From: Fimbriimonadaceae bacterium
GTDB taxonomy: Bacteria; Armatimonadota; Fimbriimonadia; Fimbriimonadales; Fimbriimonadaceae
Assembly: GCA_019638795.1 (NCBI GenBank)
Contig: JAHBTB010000005.1
Span: 124,001-188,000 of the forward strand
DNA length: 64,000 nt
Direction: 5' to 3'
Shown: one piece after another, positions 10,311 through 25,044 of the stretch
Layout: each line of letters starts with the position of its first letter
Numbering within the stretch: position 1 is the first letter of the stretch
The notes under the pieces: model-generated
Told to the model about the DNA's origin: nothing
What the model saw: only the letters and a program-made list of their open reading frames with translations
Databases searched by the model: none
Position numbers and translations under genes: made by a program

Positions 10311-11561
10311 TTAACCGAGGGCCTCCGCGACGGCCTTGGCGTACCTTGCCGCCGCCCCGGCGTTTGCCCTGACCAAATCCCGGGCGGACTGGCCCATCTG
10401 GAGTCTCAAGGCAGTGTCGGCGAGAATCTCGACAAGGGCCTCGGCCAAGGACGCCGCGTCGGCGCAGACCCGCGAGGATCCGGTCTCCCCGGCCAGCCGG
10501 GCGACGTCCCGGAAGTTCTGCATGTGCGGCCCGTGCAGCACGGGCTTGCCGTGTGCCAGGGGCTGGATGATGTTTTGGCCGCCGTAATCGCCGAACCCGC
10601 CGCCGATCACGACGACGTCCGCCAGAGAATAAACCGAAGCCAGCTCACCATAGGTGTCGAGGAGCAGGTACCGGCCCGACTCTCCCTTGCTCCGTAAGGC
10701 CACAGACCCGAGCCTGGACGCGACGGACGAGGCTAGGTCGGGGACCCGCTCCAGATGCCTCGGCGCATGCACGACCCAGACCTGCCCCAGCCGATGGTCG
10801 GCCAACGCCTCCACCACGAGGCGCTCTTCGTCCTCACCACGGGTCGATCCGACCACGACGACCTGCGCCTCGGCCGGTATGCCGAGCGTCGCCTTCCATG
10901 TCACCGGGTCGGCGTCCAGACCGCCGATGGCCTCGTCGAACTTGCAGTTCCCGACGACCACGACGTCGGCAGCCCCCAAGGAACGGAACCGCCCGGCGTC
11001 CGCCTCGCTTTGGGCCATCACCTGGTCCACCTCGCCGAAGAGTGCCTTGAAGTACGGCTTCGCCAGCCGGTCCAGCCGGTAGGCCCGGTCACTGATGCGC
11101 CCGTTGAGCACCATGGTCCGCGCCCCGACGTTGCGCGACGCCCAGAGGAAGTTGAGCCACAACTCGGTCTCCATGACCGCGACGACGCGAGGCTTGAACC
11201 GGTGGACCGCGGCGACGACAAACCGCATGACGTCCATGGGGAAGTAGACGACATGGTCGGCGAGTCCCTGGAGTCCGTCCGTCGCCGTCTTGTGCCCCGA
11301 GGACGTCGTGACACTGACCAAGACCTCGATGTCTGGCCTCAGCCGCCTAAGCTCAGCAAGGACCGGCTTGGCCGCGATCACCTCGCCTACCGAAACCGCG
11401 TGGAGCCAGACCCGCTCCGAACCCTCGCGCAACGTCAGCTGATATTCGCCCGACCGCTGCTTCCAATCCACCGGCTCCTTCCGGCGCGAAGTCCGCCAGA
11501 GCATCCACGGCACCCACAGGGGCGAGAGGAACGTGAGGAGCAGGTTATACAGCCAGATCAT
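10311..11561 (-). CDS. waaA: 3-deoxy-D-manno-octulosonic acid (Kdo) transferase
   Basis: A 416-residue GT30-family Kdo transferase that attaches Kdo from CMP-Kdo to lipid A precursor at the inner membrane. It has an N-terminal membrane anchor (MIWLYNLLLTFLSPLWVPW), the LHAVSVGEVIAAKPV motif, the ETELWLNFLW motif around residue 130, and the C-terminal GGGFGDYGGQNIIQPLAHGKPVLHGPHMQNF donor region. Its presence implies a lipopolysaccharide outer membrane. The ATG at 11561 overlaps the end of purC by 17 nt on the same strand, so the two are probably co-transcribed. Confidence 0.95.
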   Translation of the reverse strand: MIWLYNLLLTFLSPLWVPWMLWRTSRRKEPVDWKQRSGEYQLTLREGSERVWLHAVSVGEVIAAKPVLAELRRLRPDIEVLVSVTTSSGHKTATDGLQGLADHVVYFPMDVMRFVVAAVHRFKPRVVAVMETELWLNFLWASRNVGARTMVLNGRISDRAYRLDRLAKPYFKALFGEVDQVMAQSEADAGRFRSLGAADVVVVGNCKFDEAIGGLDADPVTWKATLGIPAEAQVVVVGSTRGEDEERLVVEALADHRLGQVWVVHAPRHLERVPDLASSVASRLGSVALRSKGESGRYLLLDTYGELASVYSLADVVVIGGGFGDYGGQNIIQPLAHGKPVLHGPHMQNFRDVARLAGETGSSRVCADAASLAEALVEILADTALRLQMGQSARDLVRANAGAAARYAKAVAEALG

Positions 11562-12438
11562 GCCCGGTGACCCGGCGGAACGCCTCAAGGTACTTGGCGC
11601 GGGTGTTGGTGATCACGTCGTCGGGAAGCGCCGGCCCGGGAGGAGTCTTGTCCCAACCGGTCGACTCTAGATAGTCCCGGACGTACTGCTTGTCAAAGCC
11701 CAGCTGGGGGCCCCCGGGCCTGTGCTCCTCGGCCAGCCAGAACCGGCTGGAGTCTGGCGTCAGCGCCTCGTCGATCCAAATCACGCCGTCGTCGGTCAGA
11801 CCGAACTCAAACTTTGTGTCAGCAAGGATCAGGCCGACCGAACGGGCATGGTCGGACGCGGCGGCAAAAAGTTCCATCGTCCAGCCCCGTACCTGGTCGG
11901 CGACTTCCCTGCCGACGATGTCGGCCGCCTCGTCAAAGCTGATGTTCATGTCGTGCCCTTCTTCGGCCTTCGTCGCCGGGGTGAACACGGCCTGGGGTAG
12001 CCGGTCGCCCTCGACAAGTCCGTCGGGCAGGTCGACTCCGTACAGGCGTCGGGCCCCGGTGCGGTACTCCTTGGCCCAGCTTCCCGCCAGGTACCCGCGG
12101 GCGACGCACTCGATCGCAAGCGGCTTGGCTTTGCGCGCCACCGTACACCTTCCGGCCAGTTCGGGGCGTACCCCGACCCGCGCGGAGACCTCGGCGTCGG
12201 CCGCCGAGACGACGTGGTGGGGGCAGAGATGGCCGAGCCGGTCAAACCAGTAGGCGCTCATCTGGTTGAGGATCCGGCCCTTGTCGGGTACGCCCGTCGC
12301 CATGACGACGTCAAAGGCGCTGATCCGGTCGGTCGCGACAATAAGCAACTCCGACCCGAGGTCGTAAACCTCACGGACCTTGCCGCGCCGAGGGGGCGGC
12401 AAGTCGGGCAAGCGGGACTCAAGCAAGGCCGGGGACAT
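11545..12438 (-). CDS. purC: Phosphoribosylaminoimidazole-succinocarboxamide synthase (SAICAR synthetase)
   Basis: A 297-residue PurC that condenses CAIR with aspartate using ATP in de novo purine synthesis. Markers include RRGKVREVYDLG near the N-terminus, ATDRISAFDVVM, ECVARGYLAGSWAKEY, and the C-terminal GLILADTKFEFGL and DEALTPDSSRFW. Length and motif order match the longer monofunctional (yeast-type) class. The start at 12438 (MSPALLESRLPDLP) is the only ATG close to the conserved N-terminus. The start codon lies inside a perfect 7-bp inverted repeat (12431-12447). The waaA gene overlaps its 3' end. Confidence 0.97.
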   Translation of the reverse strand: MSPALLESRLPDLPPPRRGKVREVYDLGSELLIVATDRISAFDVVMATGVPDKGRILNQMSAYWFDRLGHLCPHHVVSAADAEVSARVGVRPELAGRCTVARKAKPLAIECVARGYLAGSWAKEYRTGARRLYGVDLPDGLVEGDRLPQAVFTPATKAEEGHDMNISFDEAADIVGREVADQVRGWTMELFAAASDHARSVGLILADTKFEFGLTDDGVIWIDEALTPDSSRFWLAEEHRPGGPQLGFDKQYVRDYLESTGWDKTPPGPALPDDVITNTRAKYLEAFRRVTGHDLAV

Positions 12439-14377: not shown

Positions 14378-15919
14378 ATGTGGATCGCCGACAGCCACCG
14401 GTCGCGCGAAATCGACCGTGCCGCCCGCGAGACCTACGGCATGACAACCGCCGTGCTCATGGAGCGGGCCGGGCTCGCCGTCTTTGAACTCCTGACCCAG
14501 ATGGCCCCTCCCCGCGGCAAGGTGGCCGTGCTGTGCGGCAAGGGCCACAACGGCGGCGACGGCTTTGTCCTCGCCCGCCTCGCCTCGCAACACCAGTTCC
14601 AAGTGGAATGCCTGGTCTGCGCCACCGAGGCAGACCTCGTGGACTCGTGCCGCCAACAGATGGTGCAGGCCCGGACACAGGGGGTGGAGCCTGTCTTCTG
14701 CGACGACCCCAAGTGGAACGAACGCCTCGAAAACCTACGCCACAAAGACGTCGTGGTCGACGCCATGCTGGGCACGGGGGTCGAAGGTGGCCTGAAGGGG
14801 CCCGTGCTCACGGCGGTGCAAAAGGTCAACTTGAGCGGGGTGCCGCTCTTGGCCGTCGACCAGCCGACCGGCATCCACACCGACACTGGCGAAGAACTTG
14901 GCGACAGCGTCTACGCCACCAAAACCGTCACCTTCGGCTTGCCCAAGCCGTACCTGTTCCAGTCCGCCGGGCTGGAGCACGCAGGCGACTGGTCGGTGGC
15001 CGACATCGGCCTGCCCAAAGAGCTACGCCGGGCCCCGACGGGGGCCCGGCTCCTCGACGCCCAGTGGGTCGTCGACCGCCTGCCCGAACGGGTCAAGACC
15101 AGCCACAAAGGCGCCAACGGCCATGTGCTCGTCGTCGCCGGGAGCACAGGCATGCGTGGTGCCGCCGTCTTGGCCGTCGAGGCCGCCTATCGGGCCGGGG
15201 CAGGCATGGTCACCGTGGCTGGGGTCTCCGCAGTCTGCGACACCGTGTCACGCCGGGTGCCCGAGGCCCTGCTGTTACCCCTCGAAGAAGTGGAGGGCGC
15301 TGTCTCGCCTGCCGCCGCCGAGGTCATCCTGGCCGCGAACGGGAGGTTCGACGCGGCTCTCTTCGGCCCGGGCCTGACCCATGGGCCCGCGGCGAGCAAC
15401 TTTCTCGGCCGCCTGTGGCCGCGATGGGAAAAGCCCTGCTGCATCGACGCCGACGCGATCAACGCCGTCGCCCTCGGCCTTGCCCTTCCCCCGGTGGACT
15501 GCGCCCTGACACCCCATCCCGGTGAGATCGGCAGGCTGCTCAAGTGGCCGGTGCCGGTGGTGCAGAGCGACCGGTTCCACGCGGTGCGGTCGGCCGTCAA
15601 ACTGACCGGCAAGACCGTGCTCCTCAAAGGGCCCTACAGCATCGTCGGCGACCCCGACGAGCCGCTCAACGTCAATCCGACCGGCAACCCCGGCATGGCG
15701 ACGGCTGGTATGGGCGACGTCCTCGGCGGCATCGTCGCCACCCTGTGTGCCCAAGAGCTGACGCCCTACGAAGCGGCGTCGTGCGCGATGTTCTGGCATG
15801 GCGCCGCGGGTGACGACTGTGCCAAAGACCAGGGTGCGATCGGGTTTCTTGCCCGCAACGTCGTGACCCAACTACCGAGGACTCGCGCTAAACTGGTCGC
15901 ATCGTGCTCCGAACGCTGA
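14378..15919 (+). CDS. nnr: Bifunctional NAD(P)HX epimerase / ADP-dependent NAD(P)HX dehydratase
   Basis: A 513-residue fusion that repairs hydrated NADH and NADPH. The N-terminal YjeF_N epimerase domain (about 1-215) contains CGKGHNGGDGFVLARL and VDAMLGTG. The C-terminal carbohydrate-kinase-like dehydratase domain (about 225-505) contains VLVVAGSTGMRGAAVLA, the TPHPGEIGRL motif and the catalytic NPTGNPGMATAGMGDVLGG loop. ATG at 14378 or GTG at 14372 (overlapping the preceding stop) may be the start. Its 3' end overlaps the start of the first FHA gene by 16 nt. Confidence 0.95.
   Translation: MWIADSHRSREIDRAARETYGMTTAVLMERAGLAVFELLTQMAPPRGKVAVLCGKGHNGGDGFVLARLASQHQFQVECLVCATEADLVDSCRQQMVQARTQGVEPVFCDDPKWNERLENLRHKDVVVDAMLGTGVEGGLKGPVLTAVQKVNLSGVPLLAVDQPTGIHTDTGEELGDSVYATKTVTFGLPKPYLFQSAGLEHAGDWSVADIGLPKELRRAPTGARLLDAQWVVDRLPERVKTSHKGANGHVLVVAGSTGMRGAAVLAVEAAYRAGAGMVTVAGVSAVCDTVSRRVPEALLLPLEEVEGAVSPAAAEVILAANGRFDAALFGPGLTHGPAASNFLGRLWPRWEKPCCIDADAINAVALGLALPPVDCALTPHPGEIGRLLKWPVPVVQSDRFHAVRSAVKLTGKTVLLKGPYSIVGDPDEPLNVNPTGNPGMATAGMGDVLGGIVATLCAQELTPYEAASCAMFWHGAAGDDCAKDQGAIGFLARNVVTQLPRTRAKLVASCSER
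15889..15894 (+). promoter_or_regulatory. Probable -10 element (TAAACT) of the first FHA gene
   Basis: TAAACT lies inside the 3' end of nnr and ends 9 nt before the GTG at 15904. This would allow separate, leaderless transcription of the FHA-FHA-VWA cluster. Confidence 0.4.
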
Positions 15920-17145
15920 CCGTTTGCCTCTGTGCCGCCGTCGCCGCGTGCGCCCTGGCGCAGAGTGCCAAGACGATCAAACTCACGTTCCCGTCCGAAG
16001 GCAACCGGGAGGTTTGGCTGCAGTCGAAGTCGGAGTCAGCGACCGTTCCCGAGACAAAGAGTGTCAACGGCAAGGCTGTCGAGTTGAAGACCACGGCCGC
16101 CGACGACAAGGAGCTTGCCGTCTTTGTCCACGACAAGGCCACGGGCATGGTGGCGACCCACTTGGTCAGCGACCTGAAGGACGGGGGCTGGACCGTCGGG
16201 CCCGACGAATACAAACTGGTCCGAGGGGCGCGGGTCACCGTCTCGACCGACAAGGGGCCGGTCGCCAGCGCGCAGGTGGACCTGACCCTCGGAGACGTGA
16301 AGCGCACCGCGTTGCTGTCCCCTTCGGACAAGGGCGTCGTCAGCTTCAACCTGTTGCCCCCCGGCGACGGAGTCTTCACCGTCAAGTACAAGGTCGGCGG
16401 GGCTGACAAGTCCCTCGACCCCCAGACGTTCACGATCAAGCCGACCACCGGTGGCTGGGTCGACGTGAAGCTGACCGTCCCCGATGGAGCGGACATCGTC
16501 CCGACCGAACCGGTCGCCAAGCCCGGCGAAGGCGCCGCGAAGCCGTCGGACGCCGGAGACAAACCCAAAGACCAGGAGAAAACGAGCGGCCCCGGATCGG
16601 TCATCGGGTTGCTCGTCAACATGCTCGTCGGGCTGGGCCTGGTCGGCGGGCTGGGTTACGCGGCCTGGTGGTACGTCAAGCACAACCGGGACAAGGTCAC
16701 CGAGATCATGGACAAGGCTGGGGTACCGCTCAACCAAGACCCCGCCGACCCCACCGGCGCCGCGCCCGTCGTGCCCCAAGCACCGAAGCCGATCGTCAAG
16801 ATCGTCCTCGACGGCACCGACCCAAGCCCCGCGCCAGCGGTATCCACGGTGGGGACACCGGTCCGCAACCCGAGGTTGGTCGCCAGCGACGGCACCGTCG
16901 TCGCCCTCGCCGTAGGAACGGTCATCGTCGGGCGTGAAGCCGGCCTCGACATATCACTCCCCGACGAGGGCAGCGTCTCCCGCCGCCACGCCAGCATCCA
17001 GCGGGACGGAGGGACGGTGACCTTAAGTGACGACGGGAGCACCAACGGGACTTACGTGAACGGGTCGAAGTTGTCGGCCCCTGCCGTGTTGCACCCCGGG
17101 GACACCGTCCAGTTCGGTGCGGTCGCCTACCGGTACGAGGAGTGA
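15904..17145 (+). CDS. Secreted/membrane protein with C-terminal FHA domain
   Basis: A 413-residue protein. It has a signal peptide (residues 1-19), a beta-rich extracytoplasmic region resembling carboxypeptidase-regulatory or Ig-like folds (about 25-195), a Pro/Lys/Asp-rich linker, one transmembrane helix (about 232-258, ending WWYVKHNRDK) and a cytoplasmic FHA domain (about 328-413). The FHA domain has its key residues: G-R in VGREAGLDI, S-x-x-H in SVSRRHAS and N-G-T in STNGTYVNG. It should therefore bind phosphothreonine. The topology joins an outside sensor-like domain to a phospho-binding module inside. It is the first gene of an FHA-FHA-VWA cluster; the next gene starts 1 nt after its stop. 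Confidence 0.85.
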   Translation: MLRTLTVCLCAAVAACALAQSAKTIKLTFPSEGNREVWLQSKSESATVPETKSVNGKAVELKTTAADDKELAVFVHDKATGMVATHLVSDLKDGGWTVGPDEYKLVRGARVTVSTDKGPVASAQVDLTLGDVKRTALLSPSDKGVVSFNLLPPGDGVFTVKYKVGGADKSLDPQTFTIKPTTGGWVDVKLTVPDGADIVPTEPVAKPGEGAAKPSDAGDKPKDQEKTSGPGSVIGLLVNMLVGLGLVGGLGYAAWWYVKHNRDKVTEIMDKAGVPLNQDPADPTGAAPVVPQAPKPIVKIVLDGTDPSPAPAVSTVGTPVRNPRLVASDGTVVALAVGTVIVGREAGLDISLPDEGSVSRRHASIQRDGGTVTLSDDGSTNGTYVNGSKLSAPAVLHPGDTVQFGAVAYRYEE

Positions 17146-17146
17146 C

Positions 17147-18529
17147 ATGGGCCGCGTCCTGACCAAAGCCGTCCTATGCGCCGTCGCCGGTGTGCTGGGC
17201 TGGGTGATGACCGAGCCCCTGATGCCCACCGACTCGCGCAACGCCGACTGGGCGGCCCGCGAACGCGTCATGGTCCTCGTCATCGTCGCCCTCATCGGGC
17301 TCGTGGCCGGGTTGATCCAAGGCTTCCAGCGCGGAGGCAAGACCAACATCATGCTCGCCGGCGGGCTTGGCTTGGTGTTCGGTTCGATCGGGGGGCTCTT
17401 CGGCCACTCCATCGGCGGGGCGATGGTGGCCGGCATGTTCCGGCCGGACGTCTTCTTCGGCGGATTTTCGCCCGCGACCGTCGTCGCCCGCATCGTCGCT
17501 TTCGCACCGATCGGGGCCCTGCTGGGCGCGGCGATCGGCGGCACCCAGATGTCGAAGCGCGGAGTCGTCTCCGGGGTCCTCGGCGGCTTGATCGGCGCTG
17601 TCCTCGCTGGCGCGACGTTCGACCTCATCGGATCGGCCCTCGCCCCCCTTCTCATGACGATGCGCGGCAACAACGAGGTCGGGCTCGGCTCGAGGGCCGT
17701 CACCGCCCTGTCGCTCGGGCTCTTCGTCGGACTCTTCACCGCCTTGGCCGACTTGGCCAGCCGCCAGGCTTGGCTCCGCCTTGTGTTGGGCCGCAACGAG
17801 GGCAAGGAATGGCCCATCGACGCCGCCCAGACCAATATCGGCCGTGACGAACGGGCGCACGTGCCTCTCTTCAACGACCCCAACGTCGCCCCCCTCCAGG
17901 CCGTGATCGTGCGGCAAGGCACCCAGTACGTCCTCCACGACCCAGGTTTGTCACCGGTAGGCGTCGGACTGAACGGCCACCGCCTGATGCAACCCACCGC
18001 CCTCAACCGGGGGGACACGATCATGGTGGGTTCGAACCAGTTGCAGTTCCTGATGAAGGCCAGTGCGGCGGCGAGGGCCCACGAGGGCCGGCATGCCGCG
18101 GTCATGGTCGGCGGGCCCCAGGTCGGTCCGGCCCGGCCCGCACCGACCGCGCCCGTCCAACCCATGCCGCAACAAGCCGTCGCGCCCCAAACCCAGGCTT
18201 ACCACCCCCCCGTGCAGACCCAGGCGTACCAGGCACCGGCCGCGTCGGCCGCGGCCGTCCTCATCGCCACTGCTGGGCCGCTCACCGGCCAACGGTTCCC
18301 CATTGACCAGCCCGTCCAAGTCGGTCGCGAGGGCCAGGGGATCCCCATGGGGTTCGACACCATGGCGAGCCGACGCCACGCTGCATTGACGCCGCTTCCC
18401 GGCGGACTGGCCGTCCAGGATCTCGGGAGCACCAACGGCACCATGGTCAACGGGCAGCGGGTCGGCACGGCCACCATGCGCCCCGGCGACACCTTGCAGA
18501 TCGGGTCTTCTACGTTTAGGCTAGAGTAA
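17147..18529 (+). CDS. Polytopic membrane protein with degenerate and intact FHA domains
   Basis: A 460-residue protein with five or six hydrophobic, Gly-rich helices in the first ~215 residues, many with GxxxG-type motifs (GGLGLVFGSIGGLFGHSIGG). Two FHA regions follow. The first (about 222-305) keeps NIGRDERAHVPL but has APLQAVI where SxxH should be, so its phosphothreonine site looks lost. The second (about 375-460) is intact, with VGREG, ASRRHA and GSTNGTMVNG. A Pro/Gln-rich linker with repeated PQTQAYHPP and VQTQAYQAP segments joins them. The ATG at 17147 follows the previous stop by 1 nt. Likely a membrane scaffold of the same complex as its neighbours. Confidence 0.83.
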   Translation: MGRVLTKAVLCAVAGVLGWVMTEPLMPTDSRNADWAARERVMVLVIVALIGLVAGLIQGFQRGGKTNIMLAGGLGLVFGSIGGLFGHSIGGAMVAGMFRPDVFFGGFSPATVVARIVAFAPIGALLGAAIGGTQMSKRGVVSGVLGGLIGAVLAGATFDLIGSALAPLLMTMRGNNEVGLGSRAVTALSLGLFVGLFTALADLASRQAWLRLVLGRNEGKEWPIDAAQTNIGRDERAHVPLFNDPNVAPLQAVIVRQGTQYVLHDPGLSPVGVGLNGHRLMQPTALNRGDTIMVGSNQLQFLMKASAAARAHEGRHAAVMVGGPQVGPARPAPTAPVQPMPQQAVAPQTQAYHPPVQTQAYQAPAASAAAVLIATAGPLTGQRFPIDQPVQVGREGQGIPMGFDTMASRRHAALTPLPGGLAVQDLGSTNGTMVNGQRVGTATMRPGDTLQIGSSTFRLE

Positions 18530-18549
18530 GGAGACAGGAACGAGTCGCG

Positions 18550-19965
18550 ATGAGCAACGATCCGAACAAGACCGTCATGGGCGGGCCGACGCCCGACCCC
18601 AACCGCACCGTTCTGGGAGGGCCGGTGCCCAACTTGGGCGCGACCCAAATGATGGCCGCTCCGCCTGCCGCTGGCGACCCCAACAAGACTGGGGCATGGT
18701 CGCCGGGCAAGCCGCTCATCGTGACCGTCACCAACAGCCGCCTCGCGACGATGGCCAACGGGCCCGCCCGCGAGCAGTTCCTCTTGGAGATCACCGCGCC
18801 CAACGAACCAGGTCTCCCGGGCATGTCGGTCGGCAGTGGGCCGCGCACACCGCTCAATCTGTGCCTCGTCATCGACCGTTCGGGCTCGATGGAGGGCGCG
18901 CCCCTCGAATACGCCAAGCAGGCCTGTGGCCATGTCGTCGATCTCCTCAGCCCCAACGACGTGCTGAGCATCGTCCTCTTTGACGAGGTCGTCGAGGTGC
19001 TCATGGCGCCCCAGCGCGTCACCGACAAAGCGGCGGTCAAGGCGGGTATCGCCCAGCTGACCCCCGGCTACACGACCAACCTTTTCGACGGCCTCACCTT
19101 GGCCGCCCAGCAGTTGGGGATGACGGCAGACCCGAACCGGGTCACGCGCATGGTCGTGCTCACCGACGGCGAGCCCACCGCCGGGATCAAGGAATTCGCC
19201 CCCCTTGTCGCCCACGCCGGCGAAATCCGCCAGAAGGGCATCACCTGCACGTTCTTGGGCTTTGGGCCCGACTACAACGAAGAGCTATTGGCCTCGATGG
19301 CCAAGAAGTCAGGGGGCAACCACTACTACATCCCCCAGCCGCAAATGATCCCGCAGGTCTTTGACACCGAGCTTGCCCAGCTCATGACGGTGACCTCGAC
19401 CCAACTGAAACTGTCCCTGAAGTTCGCCCGATGGGTGAACCTCAAAGGCTGCACGGGTCACACCCTCACGGGCGGCGAGCGCGAGGTCAACGTCGATTTG
19501 GCCGACATGGAGCGGGGCGCGACGATGCAGGTCGTGGTCGACCTGGAGTTCCCCAACCACCCCTTGGGCCACTACCGCGTAGCGGGTGGAAAGCTGTCCT
19601 ACACCTCTCTCGGTGGAGCAACCGAGGTCGTCGACGTTGACTGCGTCATGGAGTTCACCGCCGATGCGGCGCGCTACTCCGTCGCGCCGGATGCGCGGGT
19701 GGCGGCGGCGGCTGAGGTCAATATGGCCAGCCGGTTGGTCGAGAAGACGATCATGGGCTTGAAGACGCAGGCGATCACGGCCGCAGTGGCCATGGCTGAC
19801 TTGCAGAAGACGCAGGCGTTGTTGCTGTCCCAAGGGCGTCAGCAGGAGGCCCGGGAGGTCACTCTGGCGATCCAGGCGATCCAGAGCGGAAACACCGGGC
19901 ATGCCGAGAAGACGCTGATGGGGACAGTAGTCCAGTTGGACCAAGGGAAGACGAAGGGCGCTTAA
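18550..19965 (+). CDS. VWA-domain protein with Thr-motif repeats
   Basis: A 471-residue cytoplasmic protein. The N-terminus has two near-identical 12-residue repeats, DPNKTVMGGPTP and DPNRTVLGGPVP (residues 4-27), and a partial third copy (DPNKTG, 43-48). A von Willebrand A domain follows (about 95-280) with a complete MIDAS: DRSGSM, the TT pair of YTTNLFDG and LTDGE. The remainder is a Ser/Thr-poor beta-sandwich and a helical tail that again holds KTIMG (399-403) and KTLMG (454-458). Thus [KR]T[VIL][ML]G occurs four times, at both ends. Directly after two FHA genes, these Thr sites are attractive candidate phospho-ligands for the FHA domains, but no kinase is encoded nearby and this is inference. 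Confidence 0.88.
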   Translation: MSNDPNKTVMGGPTPDPNRTVLGGPVPNLGATQMMAAPPAAGDPNKTGAWSPGKPLIVTVTNSRLATMANGPAREQFLLEITAPNEPGLPGMSVGSGPRTPLNLCLVIDRSGSMEGAPLEYAKQACGHVVDLLSPNDVLSIVLFDEVVEVLMAPQRVTDKAAVKAGIAQLTPGYTTNLFDGLTLAAQQLGMTADPNRVTRMVVLTDGEPTAGIKEFAPLVAHAGEIRQKGITCTFLGFGPDYNEELLASMAKKSGGNHYYIPQPQMIPQVFDTELAQLMTVTSTQLKLSLKFARWVNLKGCTGHTLTGGEREVNVDLADMERGATMQVVVDLEFPNHPLGHYRVAGGKLSYTSLGGATEVVDVDCVMEFTADAARYSVAPDARVAAAAEVNMASRLVEKTIMGLKTQAITAAVAMADLQKTQALLLSQGRQQEAREVTLAIQAIQSGNTGHAEKTLMGTVVQLDQGKTKGA

Positions 19966-21370: not shown

Positions 21371-22714
21371 TCAGAATATGCCTTGCAACTTTCCAGTCGA
21401 ATCGCCTAACGTCTCGACCTTAACCCCGACAAAGTCGAGCATCGAGAGGAACAGGTTGTTCATTGGCGTCTGCTCCGGCACCACAAGGTGACGGCCAGCG
21501 GCGAGTCGGCCGCCACCCCGACCAGCCACCAAGACAGGCAGATGGTCGTGGTTGTGCCGGTTGCCGTCGCTGATCCCGGCCCCATAGACCAACACGGTGT
21601 TGTCCAAAAGCGTCCGGCCGTCGAGTTCCTGGATCCCCTGCATTTTCTTCAGCACATACGCCATCTGGGCCACATGGAAGGTGTCGATCTCCGCCTTTTT
21701 CGCCAGCTTGCCGGGGTCGTCGCCGTGGTGGCTGATGTCGTGATGGCCCTCGCTGATGCCGATCTCGCGATAGGGGCGGTTGCTGCCGTCGTTAGCGAGC
21801 ATGAAGGTGCAGATTCTCGTCAGGTCGGCCTGGAACGCCAGCACCATCATGTCGCCCATCAGCCGGATGTGTTCACCCCGGTCTTGGGGGACGCCCACCG
21901 GCATCTTGACCTCGGCAGGGGCGGAAACTTGCTTCGACTCCTTTTCGATCCTCGTCAGCCGCTGTTCGACCTCGCGGACGCTCTGGAGATACTCTTCCAG
22001 CTTCATCTGGTCGTGCTTGCCGAGCCGCCCGCGCAAGGCGTCGGCGTCTTCGGCGACAAAGTCCAAGATCGACCGGTCGTACTGGGCCCGCTTCGCCCGG
22101 CTCTCCATTGCCTCGACGGTCTGGCCGTTGCCAAACAGCCTTTCGAAGACCTGGCGTGGGTTGACCTCTTTGGCCACCGGCGTCGTGGCGGAACGCCACG
22201 AGATGTTGGAGGAATAGGCGCACGAATAACCGCTGTCGCAGTCGCCGTTGAGGCCGCTGCGCTCGCACCCGATCTCCAGCGATGGGAACCGGGTGTTCCC
22301 GCCGATCGCTTGGGCCGCCACCTGGTCGGCGCTGATCCCGTTGTGGATGTCCGCCCCGGCTGTCTTCTTGCAGTGCACGCCGGTCAACCACGTCGCGGTC
22401 GAACGGGCGTGGTCGCCTGGGCCGTCACCCAGGGCGGCGGCATTGTTTTGGGCCAGGCCCGAGATGACGTTGAGCGAACCCCTCAGCTCGCGGAGCGGCT
22501 CTAAGATCGGGGTGATCTCCAGCTTGCCCGCGGCGGCCGGAGTCCACTTGTCCATGTTGATGCCATTGGGAACAAAGGCGAACGCCATGCGCACCGGCTG
22601 CGCTTTCACCGACTGGGCGAGGGCGGTTGTCGGGGCCATGACCTCCAGCATCGGCAGGGCCAAGGCGGTGCCGACCCCCTTCAGGAAGGTCCGTCGTTCG
22701 ATCCGGTTGTTCAT
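21371..22714 (-). CDS. DUF1552 protein, Tat-exported
   Basis: A 447-residue DUF1552 protein with a twin-arginine signal (ERRTFLKGVGTALALPMLE) at the N-terminus. The mature part has typical family segments such as FVPNGINMDKWTP, ISGLAQNNA, DHARSTATWLTGV and HHDISHHGDD, and a likely binding-site motif GISDGNRHNHDHLPVLVAG near residue 375. Enzymatic activity is not established for the family; fold relationships are to DUF1501 and alkaline-phosphatase-like proteins. Its ATG overlaps the stop of the upstream DUF1592 gene by 4 nt (ATGA), a pairing common in Planctomycetes, Verrucomicrobia and Acidobacteria. Confidence 0.9.
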   Translation of the reverse strand: MNNRIERRTFLKGVGTALALPMLEVMAPTTALAQSVKAQPVRMAFAFVPNGINMDKWTPAAAGKLEITPILEPLRELRGSLNVISGLAQNNAAALGDGPGDHARSTATWLTGVHCKKTAGADIHNGISADQVAAQAIGGNTRFPSLEIGCERSGLNGDCDSGYSCAYSSNISWRSATTPVAKEVNPRQVFERLFGNGQTVEAMESRAKRAQYDRSILDFVAEDADALRGRLGKHDQMKLEEYLQSVREVEQRLTRIEKESKQVSAPAEVKMPVGVPQDRGEHIRLMGDMMVLAFQADLTRICTFMLANDGSNRPYREIGISEGHHDISHHGDDPGKLAKKAEIDTFHVAQMAYVLKKMQGIQELDGRTLLDNTVLVYGAGISDGNRHNHDHLPVLVAGRGGGRLAAGRHLVVPEQTPMNNLFLSMLDFVGVKVETLGDSTGKLQGIF

Positions 22715-25044
22715 CGGGCTTCTCCAGTGTACGCGCGTTTGCGGAAGACGTCGCTTTTCACAATGCTCTTGATGATGCTTTCCAGCGTCGAGCCGCCCGC
22801 TTTGGCTTGCTTCACGATCTCGTCGACACTGCAGCGGTCGGCGGGGCGTAGTCCGCGGCCAAGGCCGTAGACGAGCAGCTTCTCGGTGATGGCGCGCAGG
22901 AACTCGTCGCGTCGGCCCGCCAACACCTTGCGAAGGTCGTCGACCCCGTCAATGGCCTGGCCGCCAGGCAGTGTGCCCGTCGCGTCGACCTTGAATGGGC
23001 CGTCCATCGTCCGCCACCGCCCGACCGGGTCGAAGTTTTCAAGGGCGAACCCGATCGCGTCCATTTGCACGTGGCAGGAGGCGCAAGCGGGGTCGGCCCG
23101 GTGGGCCGCCATCCGTTCCCGGATCGTCTTCGCGGTGGCGGCCTTGTGGTCGTCGGCGAGGACCGGGGTGTTGGGCGGCTGGGGCGGCGGCGGGGTGCCG
23201 AGGACCTCCTCCAGGACATACCGGCCCCGCTTCACCGGCGACGTGCGGTTGGGGTTGCTCGTCACGGTGAGGAAGCTGGCCATGCCGAGCAGGCCGCCAC
23301 GGTGAAGCCCCTTGGTGTCCACCCGCCGGAAACCTTCGCCCTTGACCCCCGGGACGCCGTAGAAGTCGGCCAGCCGTTCGTTCATCTGCGTGTCGGTGGC
23401 GGTGACGAGGTCGATGACGGGCCGCTTGTTCCGGAGCACGTCCATGAAGAAGTACTTCGTCTCGCGGGCCATGTCGGCCTTCAATTTGTCATCGACCATC
23501 GGGAACAGCGTCGGGTCGGGGGTCAGCGTCGCGAGCTTGCGCAACTGGAGCCATTGGCCGACAAAGTCGTCGGAAAGCGCTTTGCTCTTAGGGTCGGCCA
23601 GCATGCGCTCCACCTGGGCGTCGACGACCCTCGGGTCCATGATCTTGCCCACCGCGGCCGCGTCGGTCAGTTGCTGGTCGGGCATCGAAGACCACAGGAA
23701 GTAGCTGATGCGCGAGGCATAGTCATAGGGGTCGAGCGGCACGTTGGTCTTGCCGTCCTTGGGCCGGTCGTCCGTCTCCGCCCGATAGAGGAAGTTCGGG
23801 GAGACGAGGACCGCTTGGACGGCCACCTGGATTCCCTTCTCGTAGCTGTCACCCCCTCGGCGGACCGAATCATAGACCGCCATGATGCGGTCGAGTTCTG
23901 GGCCCGAGACCGGCCGGCGGAACGCCCGGCTGGCGAACCGTCCCAGCACAGTCCGTGCTGCGGTGACGTGGTCGCCTCCCTTGGGATAGGTGAAGACCAC
24001 CGAGTTCGGGTCGGGCTTTCTCGGGGCGCTCCCGGCCAGAGGCCCTTCAACCTCCACCCACTGCACCACCAGGTTTCGGTCTCGCTTTTCTGGATCAGGA
24101 AACTTTTCGTCGTAGTAGTCGTTGGTGAAAGCGACGGACACCGAGTTGTGCCCTTCGGGCAGTTCGACCGGGATCTCGACCACCTTGGACTGACCGCGCA
24201 AGGTGTTGACCGCGATGTTTTGGACCAGTCTGCCGTTGACCCCGACGGCAAGGTTGGGTAGGGCGGGCCCACCCTGCATCCCATAGGCGGCGACGCGGAC
24301 GCGGTAATCGCCGGCGGAAGCAACCTTGAACGGCAACGTGAGCTTGCCCTCGGAGAAGAACAAGACCTCGCTCTCGTCGGTCAGTCGGGCGGTCTGGAGC
24401 TTGAGGTCGGCGGGAAACACGAGACGCTGGGTGCTCGGGCCGGTGACAGGAACGGCGGCGCGGGCCAGTTTCTCGGCCGCGGCCATGTACATCTCGAAGT
24501 GCAACGGCGACACGGAGAGGACGTCGCCGATCGTGTCGAAACCGTAGCCGACGTCGTCGGACGGGAAGGCGTCGGCAGGGTGCAGGTCGACCCCGACCAG
24601 GTCGCGCACCGTGTTGTTGTACTCGCTGCGGTTCAGGCGGCGGATCGTGACCTTGCCGATGTCACCCAGGTCGCACTTTGTCGCCATCGCCCGTTGGAAC
24701 CAGCTGACGAGTGCCTCGCGCTCGGCGACGGTCGGCGACGGTGAACCGGGGGGAGGCATGATCTGCCCTCGGAGCCGCTGGACAAGCTTGTCGGCCTCGT
24801 CCGTCGACTTGTCCACCCACTTCAGGCCGTTGATCTGCGCGACGTCGAAGCCACCGGCCGCGTCTTGGCCGTCGTGGCAGGGTGCGCAGTACTTGGTGAC
24901 GAGCGGGCGGACCGACTTCGTGAACTCGGCGTCGAGCTTGGGGTCGACCTGCCCTTGTGGCGCAGACGGCACGGCCAAGGCGGCGACGAACGCGGCCCCT
25001 GCCACAGGCAGGCTGACCTTGCGCAATGTCTGGAACCTCTCCAT
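22711..25044 (-). CDS. DUF1592/DUF1588/DUF1585 cytochrome-like protein
   Basis: A 777-residue exported protein. After a signal-like N-terminus (LPVAGAAFVAALAVPSAP), it carries a haem c site (YCAPCHDG, CxxCH, about residue 52), a DUF1587 region with IRRLNRSEYNNTVRDLVGVD, a DUF1595/DUF1592 region (FASRAFRRPVSGPELDRI, then SRISYFLWSSMPDQQL), DUF1588 (KGLHRGGLLGMASFLTVTS) with a second haem site CASCHVQMD, and DUF1585 at the end. This planctomycete-type architecture suggests periplasmic electron transfer or oxidative breakdown of polymers; the substrate is unknown. It is coupled to DUF1552 by a 4-nt overlap, so the two proteins probably work together. Confidence 0.92.
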   Translation of the reverse strand: MERFQTLRKVSLPVAGAAFVAALAVPSAPQGQVDPKLDAEFTKSVRPLVTKYCAPCHDGQDAAGGFDVAQINGLKWVDKSTDEADKLVQRLRGQIMPPPGSPSPTVAEREALVSWFQRAMATKCDLGDIGKVTIRRLNRSEYNNTVRDLVGVDLHPADAFPSDDVGYGFDTIGDVLSVSPLHFEMYMAAAEKLARAAVPVTGPSTQRLVFPADLKLQTARLTDESEVLFFSEGKLTLPFKVASAGDYRVRVAAYGMQGGPALPNLAVGVNGRLVQNIAVNTLRGQSKVVEIPVELPEGHNSVSVAFTNDYYDEKFPDPEKRDRNLVVQWVEVEGPLAGSAPRKPDPNSVVFTYPKGGDHVTAARTVLGRFASRAFRRPVSGPELDRIMAVYDSVRRGGDSYEKGIQVAVQAVLVSPNFLYRAETDDRPKDGKTNVPLDPYDYASRISYFLWSSMPDQQLTDAAAVGKIMDPRVVDAQVERMLADPKSKALSDDFVGQWLQLRKLATLTPDPTLFPMVDDKLKADMARETKYFFMDVLRNKRPVIDLVTATDTQMNERLADFYGVPGVKGEGFRRVDTKGLHRGGLLGMASFLTVTSNPNRTSPVKRGRYVLEEVLGTPPPPQPPNTPVLADDHKAATAKTIRERMAAHRADPACASCHVQMDAIGFALENFDPVGRWRTMDGPFKVDATGTLPGGQAIDGVDDLRKVLAGRRDEFLRAITEKLLVYGLGRGLRPADRCSVDEIVKQAKAGGSTLESIIKSIVKSDVFRKRAYTGEAR

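Follow-up and report, generated by a model that had tools for sequence, protein, structure and literature searches.

Three adjacent genes in a 64,000-nucleotide stretch of a Fimbriimonadaceae genome (phylum Armatimonadota), hereafter the window, encode two membrane proteins with FHA domains, P1 and P2, and a VWA-domain protein, P3, that repeats a short threonine motif. The question raised by this locus is whether these threonines constitute a phosphorylated ligand and, if so, which FHA domains would read it. The original prediction held that they form a multivalent phosphothreonine ligand tied to FHA proteins. We find that this is still the best reading of motifs that prove to be conserved, while the favoured FHA partner, the kinase and the phosphatase all lie outside the window. 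The three genes are probably half of a six-protein, ArnAB-like phosphothreonine module, widespread in Armatimonadota, in which a kinase would write, FHA domains read and a PP2C phosphatase erase. The most likely direct FHA partner of P3 is P5, a protein encoded elsewhere in the genome, because it carries the same tail and has an ArnA-like make-up; P1 and P2 are further candidates. If this is true, the ArnA-ArnB type of FHA-VWA switch, studied experimentally in Sulfolobales, extends to a bacterial phylum whose signalling has hardly been studied, and a single linked gene set supplies writer, eraser, readers and candidate substrate sites, making the role of a repeated phosphothreonine motif directly testable.

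The window corresponds to G000:C5:124001-188000 of the source genome, G000 (2.7 Mb, 99% complete). Motifs and gene content were surveyed in 85 genomes of the window's family, and the P3 orthologue set comprised 99 proteins, with 60 tails from that family and 39 from other families.

The threonine tail of P3

The features of P3 needed here are the following.

18550..19965, + strand: P3, ArnB-like, with a disordered tail, beta-sandwich, VWA domain and C-terminal four-helix bundle (Pfam, AlphaFold2, structural match)
18550..18699, + strand: disordered N-terminal tail of P3, residues 1-50, with the Thr-motif array (predicted local distance difference test, pLDDT, mostly <50; motif statistics; conservation)
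18559..18582, + strand: tail motif 1, DPNKTVMG (T8; translation)
18595..18618, + strand: tail motif 2, DPNRTVLG (T20; translation)
18640..18654, + strand: tail motif 3, ATQMM (T32; translation); TQAM/TQMM-type sites recur in orthologues
18676..18699, + strand: tail motif 4, DPNKTGAW (T47; translation); alignment column at least 90% Thr
18853..19389, + strand: VWA domain, residues 102-280, with the metal-ion-dependent adhesion site (MIDAS) DRSGS (Pfam, alignment, AlphaFold2)

The four motifs listed in the original prediction, KTVMG (T8), RTVLG (T20), KTIMG (T400) and KTLMG (T455), are exact, and the tail contains two further related threonines beyond that list, T32 (ATQMM) and T47 (DPNKTGAW). 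Across Armatimonadota, 98 of 99 orthologous tails hold one to four motifs and one has none, in tails of 33-61 residues whose length and spacer sequence vary. At least two [KR]T sites are present in 58 of the 60 family tails and in 29 of the 39 tails from other families. The pattern [KR]T[QVMITAL][MLIAV] occurs 169 times in the family tails against 3.4 +/- 1.8 in composition shuffles (about 50-fold), and 68 times against 1.6 in the tails of other families; such shuffles test composition rather than ancestry, and the orthologues are not independent of each other. That the motif repeats beyond chance is upheld by this enrichment and by a control for tandem pairs, described below, that returned zero.

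The tail consensus can be written as D-P-N-[KR]-T-[QVM]-[AML]-[MG]. Where DPN is lost, as in the ATQM and PTQM sites found outside the window's family, Thr is the most constant element. The proposed rule of a glycine at +3 did not hold: in family tails Met comes first at this position (26%), because TQAM-type sites are frequent, and Gly follows at 12%.

Disordered tails of variable length might be neutral low-complexity sequence, with their repeats kept by common descent. On that account motif-free tails should be common, yet only one was found among the 99; the motifs persist at 40-60% whole-protein identity while length and spacers turn over, and the same array recurs on an unrelated protein, P5, and as tandem pairs nowhere else in the 85 genomes. 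We regard neutral descent as highly improbable, and the retention of motifs despite spacer turnover argues for selection on them. Alternatively, the repeats could be a short linear motif by which both proteins dock to a shared partner independently of phosphorylation, for instance to the kinase, the PP2C or some other protein, with the Thr kept for packing. Much of the conservation does precede the Thr (D-P-N-K/R), in agreement with such a role, but the Thr is what stays most constant once DPN is gone, and the linked genes encode a phosphothreonine reader, writer and eraser, so that we consider docking distinctly unlikely.

A second carrier of the tail

A pattern search for the tail array identified P5, a protein of 297 residues encoded at G000:C3:219424-220314 and unlinked to P3 in G000. 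The P5 sequence opens with MDPNKTQMGSAPVADPNRTQMGSVLDPNRTIMG, followed by a C-x2-C-x10-C-x2-C zinc motif and then by two FHA domains. Its gene overlaps the start of a PP2C gene, whose product has the Stp1/IreP PP2C as its closest NCBIfam model (226.5 bits, cut-off 230). P5 is kept in the window's family, where most copies have two or three motifs in the tail, and both FHA signatures are complete in all 59 copies examined. By sequence it matches ArnA chains weakly.

In the 85 family genomes, comparison of coordinates placed 76 of 76 tandem DPN[KR]T pairs in P3 or P5 genes, and the reversed pattern, searched over the same genomes as a control, gave 0 matches. Within the window and two further stretches of G000 (75 non-overlapping open reading frames, 28,966 residues), DPN[KR]T occurs in P3 and one other protein only. 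[KR]TQAM, tried as a genome search pattern, performed near background, the motif being looser, and was set aside in favour of DPN[KR]T, which gave a clean result. A tandem Thr motif confined to two proteins genome-wide amounts to a rare, clean prediction of bacterial kinase substrates from sequence only.

P5 also has a Thr-motif tail ahead of an intact FHA domain in the same chain, which is the arrangement of the GarA/OdhI type. The tail motif of that type, ETTSVF, is absent from the P5 tails of the window's family, which read DPN[KR]TxMG, and ETTVAVG appears in the tails of family f3 only; a classification of P5 as a GarA homologue was rejected on the motif. In family f3 (L351-L355) the P5 tails are without DPN[KR]T and several read ETTVAVG..ATQAM, while the P3 tails keep DPNRTQAM. 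At five other loci (L252, L258, L261, L262, L263) an N-terminal J-domain-like stretch (e.g. ..FEVLSNPDLRAEYDK..) precedes the P5 tail.

Fold of P3 and its C-terminal threonines

An AlphaFold2 model of P3, built from 45 orthologues, has a mean pLDDT of 88 and consists of disordered residues 1-50, a beta-sandwich into which the VWA domain (Pfam E 6e-19) is inserted and a four-helix bundle. Its top structural match is ArnB (8s05_A; Z 34.4, root-mean-square deviation 3.5, 373 of 381 residues aligned), followed by the Catenulispora VWA protein 4fx5 (Z 33.8, a tie) and the ArnB paralogue vWA2 (Z 30.5). The C-terminal features are as follows.

19693..19944, + strand: C-terminal four-helix bundle, residues 382-465, counterpart of the ArnB regulatory bundle (AlphaFold2, structural match; PMC12852372)
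19747..19749, + strand: T400 in KTIMG, inside a helix; Thr in 99/99 orthologues
19810..19812, + strand: T421 in QKTQA, inside a helix; Thr in 99/99 orthologues
19912..19914, + strand: T455 in EKTLMG, inside a helix; Thr in 99/99 orthologues

These positions bear on the claim that the repeated motifs form one class: the N-terminal sites do lie together in a disordered tail, but T400 and T455 belong to a folded helix bundle. On the model, the C-terminal motifs differ in kind from the tail sites and need not act like them. They may even be purely structural helix-packing residues whose likeness to the tail is coincidental, a proposition compatible with the module put forward here, and one on which we lean only slightly to the negative. 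All three invariant threonines sit in confidently modelled helices, and conservation extends over the whole segment rather than the motif alone. Conversely, each is Thr in every orthologue and is preceded by Lys/Arg in nearly all 99, and in ArnB, whose fold is the nearest, threonines of the same bundle, some of them buried, become phosphorylated, with FHA binding as the consequence (PMC12852372). Because of this precedent in the same bundle, the C-terminal sites are still candidate phosphosites.

The membrane FHA proteins

P1 follows directly on an NAD(P)H-hydrate epimerase/dehydratase gene, and P1, P2 and P3 all lie on the + strand as three adjacent genes with the make-up and positions originally described.

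15904..17145, + strand: P1, an exported beta-rich domain, one transmembrane helix and a cytoplasmic FHA domain (open reading frame, translation, Pfam FHA, AlphaFold2 model)
16921..17118, + strand: FHA domain of P1, residues 340-405, with complete phosphothreonine-binding residues (Pfam, orthologue comparison)
17147..18529, + strand: P2, polytopic in the membrane, whose first FHA domain is degenerate and whose second is intact (translation, Pfam, orthologues)
18320..18505, + strand: second FHA domain of P2, residues 392-453, with complete binding residues (Pfam, orthologue comparison)

The start of P1 resembles a signal peptide and leads into a beta-rich extracytoplasmic region, with the transmembrane helix at residues 233-260 of the AlphaFold2 model and the FHA domain (Pfam E 1e-19) at the C-terminus. 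No fold was obtained for the extracytoplasmic domain from a structural search that FHA matches dominated. Two of the three FHA domains had been credited with full binding residues, and this is what orthologues bear out: GR, SxxH and STNG are all present in the P1 FHA and in the second FHA of P2, the first FHA of P2 is degenerate, and the signature pattern is kept in 47 of 50 (P1) and 51 of 51 (P2) family orthologues. In P1, the binding residues G343, R344, S359, R360, H362, S379, N381 and G382 are invariant or nearly so across 60 orthologues. The linkers of P1 and P2 were considered as extra motif carriers and rejected, with such sites in just 2 of 50 and 12 of 51 proteins, respectively. A further small FHA protein (161-residue open reading frame, G000:C5:220447-220671, L098), unlinked to the module, is a possible extra reader.

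Gene linkage and distribution

A search at E <= 0.001 detects P3 in 82 of the 85 family genomes, with a few of the hits being weak ones to different VWA proteins. P3 is mostly full length, with 56-73% identity in the family and 43-59% widely across the phylum. Within the family the genes usually run P1-P2-P3. Conservation of the gene order and of the Thr motifs had been named as the check on the original prediction, and both are kept.

Outside the window's family, 40 loci were fetched. P5 directly follows P3 in 27, then PP2C in 24 and then the kinase in 18, and many incomplete loci hit contig ends or have a split cluster; all six genes stand in the order P1-P2-P3-P5-PP2C-Ser/Thr kinase at 11 loci from other families. 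The window's family has the six-gene cluster broken into three, with all parts kept, and the kinase orthologue of the source genome, a Hanks-type/PknB-like Ser/Thr kinase, maps to G000:C6:25724-27409. At eight examined loci P1-P2 fell outside the few kb fetched, and P2, generally with a P1-like FHA stretch, is elsewhere in the genome. The notion of an FHA-linked module is strengthened by these data, in that FHA residues are conserved and a kinase, a PP2C and another double-FHA protein adjoin across the phylum.

The genomes surveyed are mostly metagenome-assembled, and absence in fragmented ones may reflect gaps; one example is G044, a member of the window's genus, whose contig ends within P2, just where P3 would come next. 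Two reduced genomes of 1.5 Mb, G059 and G060, are without P2, P3, P5 and the kinase orthologue, a joint absence that speaks for the module, and six further genomes without a P3 orthologue are likewise without a P5 orthologue. Among the best 80 loci of a wider genome scan, those with informative titles are Armatimonadota, other phyla having had no in-depth search. Plasmid-borne VWA homologues in Cyanobacteria and Deinococcus had no annotated FHA, PP2C or kinase neighbours at the three loci inspected, so that these gave no sign of the module beyond the phylum.

Two observations on neighbouring subjects are recorded here. The activation loop of the kinase in the window's family, F[EQ]PN[LI]TMDGQVFGTPSYMSPE, resembles the tail motif D/E-P-N-x-T-M-x-G (L197-L226, L242-L266); the resemblance is kept as a hint only and does not count as evidence that loop and tail co-evolved, since EPSITQDG or GESSITQDG accompanies tails of a similar kind in other families. 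Downstream in the window, 21371-25044 (- strand) encodes a pair of proteins, DUF1552 and DUF1592/1588/1587/1595/1585, that includes a CBM60-like and a cytochrome stretch; DUF1552/DUF1592-type pairs are associated with Planctomycetes.

Proposed mechanism

The computed results are that the motifs are conserved, that two proteins share the tail, that the genes are linked, that the FHA residues are intact and that P3 has a predicted ArnB-like fold. From them we infer phosphorylation, FHA binding, the direction of the signal and a biological output of the module. P3 would be the ArnB-like partner and P5 the ArnA-like partner. The Hanks-type Ser/Thr kinase would phosphorylate the [KR]T motifs in the disordered tails of both, and possibly also the invariant Thr of the P3 helix bundle. 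The FHA domains of P5 and those of the membrane proteins P1 and P2 would bind the phosphorylated sites, tightening the P3-P5 complex, bringing it to the membrane, or both, and PP2C would reset the module. The extracytoplasmic domain of P1 is a plausible input or anchor. The signal path proposed originally, from this domain through FHA docking to the MIDAS, may apply, but P1-P2 lies apart from the VWA gene in some genomes.

Several findings weigh against this proposal. Identity to ArnB in the structural match is 18%, and no phospho role is known for similar folds, among them the Catenulispora VWA protein at Z 33.8. The ArnB C-terminal domain (IPR040929) was not among the Pfam matches of the 45 orthologues up to E = 1, the presence of that model in the library being unconfirmed. 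Motif positions +1 to +3 are loose, and reader specificity is hence not defined by the motif. G038, a genome 97% complete, has P3 and no detectable P5. Finally, P3 is unlinked to P1-P2 in several genomes, which makes docking to membrane FHA domains less certain than the pairing of P3 with P5.

This last point is also where another account of the tails enters, in which they are read in cis or only within the P3-P5 pair, the P5 tail folding onto its own FHA and competing with the P3 tail, and P1 and P2 recognise other ligands, for instance the kinase. A single P5 chain does hold both a Thr tail and two intact FHA domains, the ETTVAVG-like tails of family f3 come close to the ETTSVF type, and across the phylum P5 is a neighbour of P3, whereas P1-P2 may lie at another locus. 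P1-P2-P3 adjacency is nevertheless the commoner arrangement in the window's family, and the FHA residues of P1 are invariant; we judge the restricted reading somewhat unlikely.

Within the six-protein module, the tails could go further and embody a lineage-specific multivalent phosphothreonine code, in which a single kinase writes one motif repeatedly on both partners and the four intact FHA domains, one each in P1 and P2 and a pair in P5, read it. We put this forward speculatively and think it rather unlikely; if true, a VWA-FHA assembly would take its size and membrane location from the extent of phosphorylation, in place of a one-site switch.

Comparison with known systems

The open-access literature yielded no paper joining Armatimonadetes with FHA, nor, for bacteria, any that combines FHA, VWA, kinase and zinc ribbon; an ArnAB-like module with motif tails is apparently undescribed in bacteria. 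The mycobacterial FhaA/FhaB-PstP-PknA/PknB cluster likewise brings together two FHA proteins, a PP2C and a PknB-like kinase, but is not known to include a VWA protein or Thr-motif tails as found here. In NCBIfam searches P2 and P5 partly match FhaB and the best model for the kinase is PknB_PASTA (catalytic domain only), all below the family cut-offs. The TerY-P triad of VWA protein, PP2C and Ser/Thr kinase shares the encoding of a VWA protein with the two enzymes and, to our knowledge, is without FHA. G000 has a separate triad of TerY-P make-up (VWA, PP2C and a kinase-like 707-residue open reading frame; G000:C7 ~11248-11868, L093), unlinked to the module; P3 is not its VWA protein, and the assignment of the module to TerY-P was rejected.

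In the FHA proteins GarA, OdhI and DgcB an N-terminal Thr tail is phosphorylated (PMC6733907), and P5 resembles them in placing a disordered Thr tail ahead of its FHA domains. The DgcB peptide EKpTSIV, with Lys at -1 and hydrophobic residues at +2/+3 (PMC6733907), is not far from [KR]T-x-[ML]. By analogy, these precedents show that an extended N-terminal phosphothreonine tail is a normal FHA ligand. P5 differs in having two or three motifs instead of one site, two FHA domains and a zinc ribbon, in the motif itself (DPN[KR]TxMG versus ETTSVF), and in sharing its tail with a non-FHA partner, P3.

The closest parallel is the archaeal ArnA-ArnB system. In S. acidocaldarius, unphosphorylated ArnA and ArnB are held together loosely, with the ArnA zinc finger (C21/C24/C35/C38) on the beta-sandwich and helix bundle of ArnB; ArnC then phosphorylates several bundle threonines, exposed ones first and buried ones later (PMC12852372), and the ArnA FHA binds phosphorylated ArnB through redundant sites (PMC12852372, PMC6509490). 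P3 shares with ArnB the VWA domain, the split beta-sandwich and the four-helix bundle with several threonines, and P5 has the zinc-motif spacing of ArnA followed by FHA domains and adjoins P3 outside the window's family. Both circuits comprise a Hanks-type kinase and a phosphatase (ArnC/ArnD and PP2A in the archaeal case). The module is, however, bacterial, employs PP2C instead of PP2A, has two FHA domains in P5 and an identity of ~18% between P3 and ArnB, and adds two membrane FHA proteins to the cluster. The disordered Thr-motif tails of P3 and P5 are not described for ArnA/ArnB (PMC12852372, PMC6509490). The archaeal motility output is not carried over to the bacterial module, and P3 is not counted among the proven members of the ArnB family, given the lack of a firm match at the level of sequence families; it is by predicted architecture and gene neighbourhood that the module is ArnAB-like.

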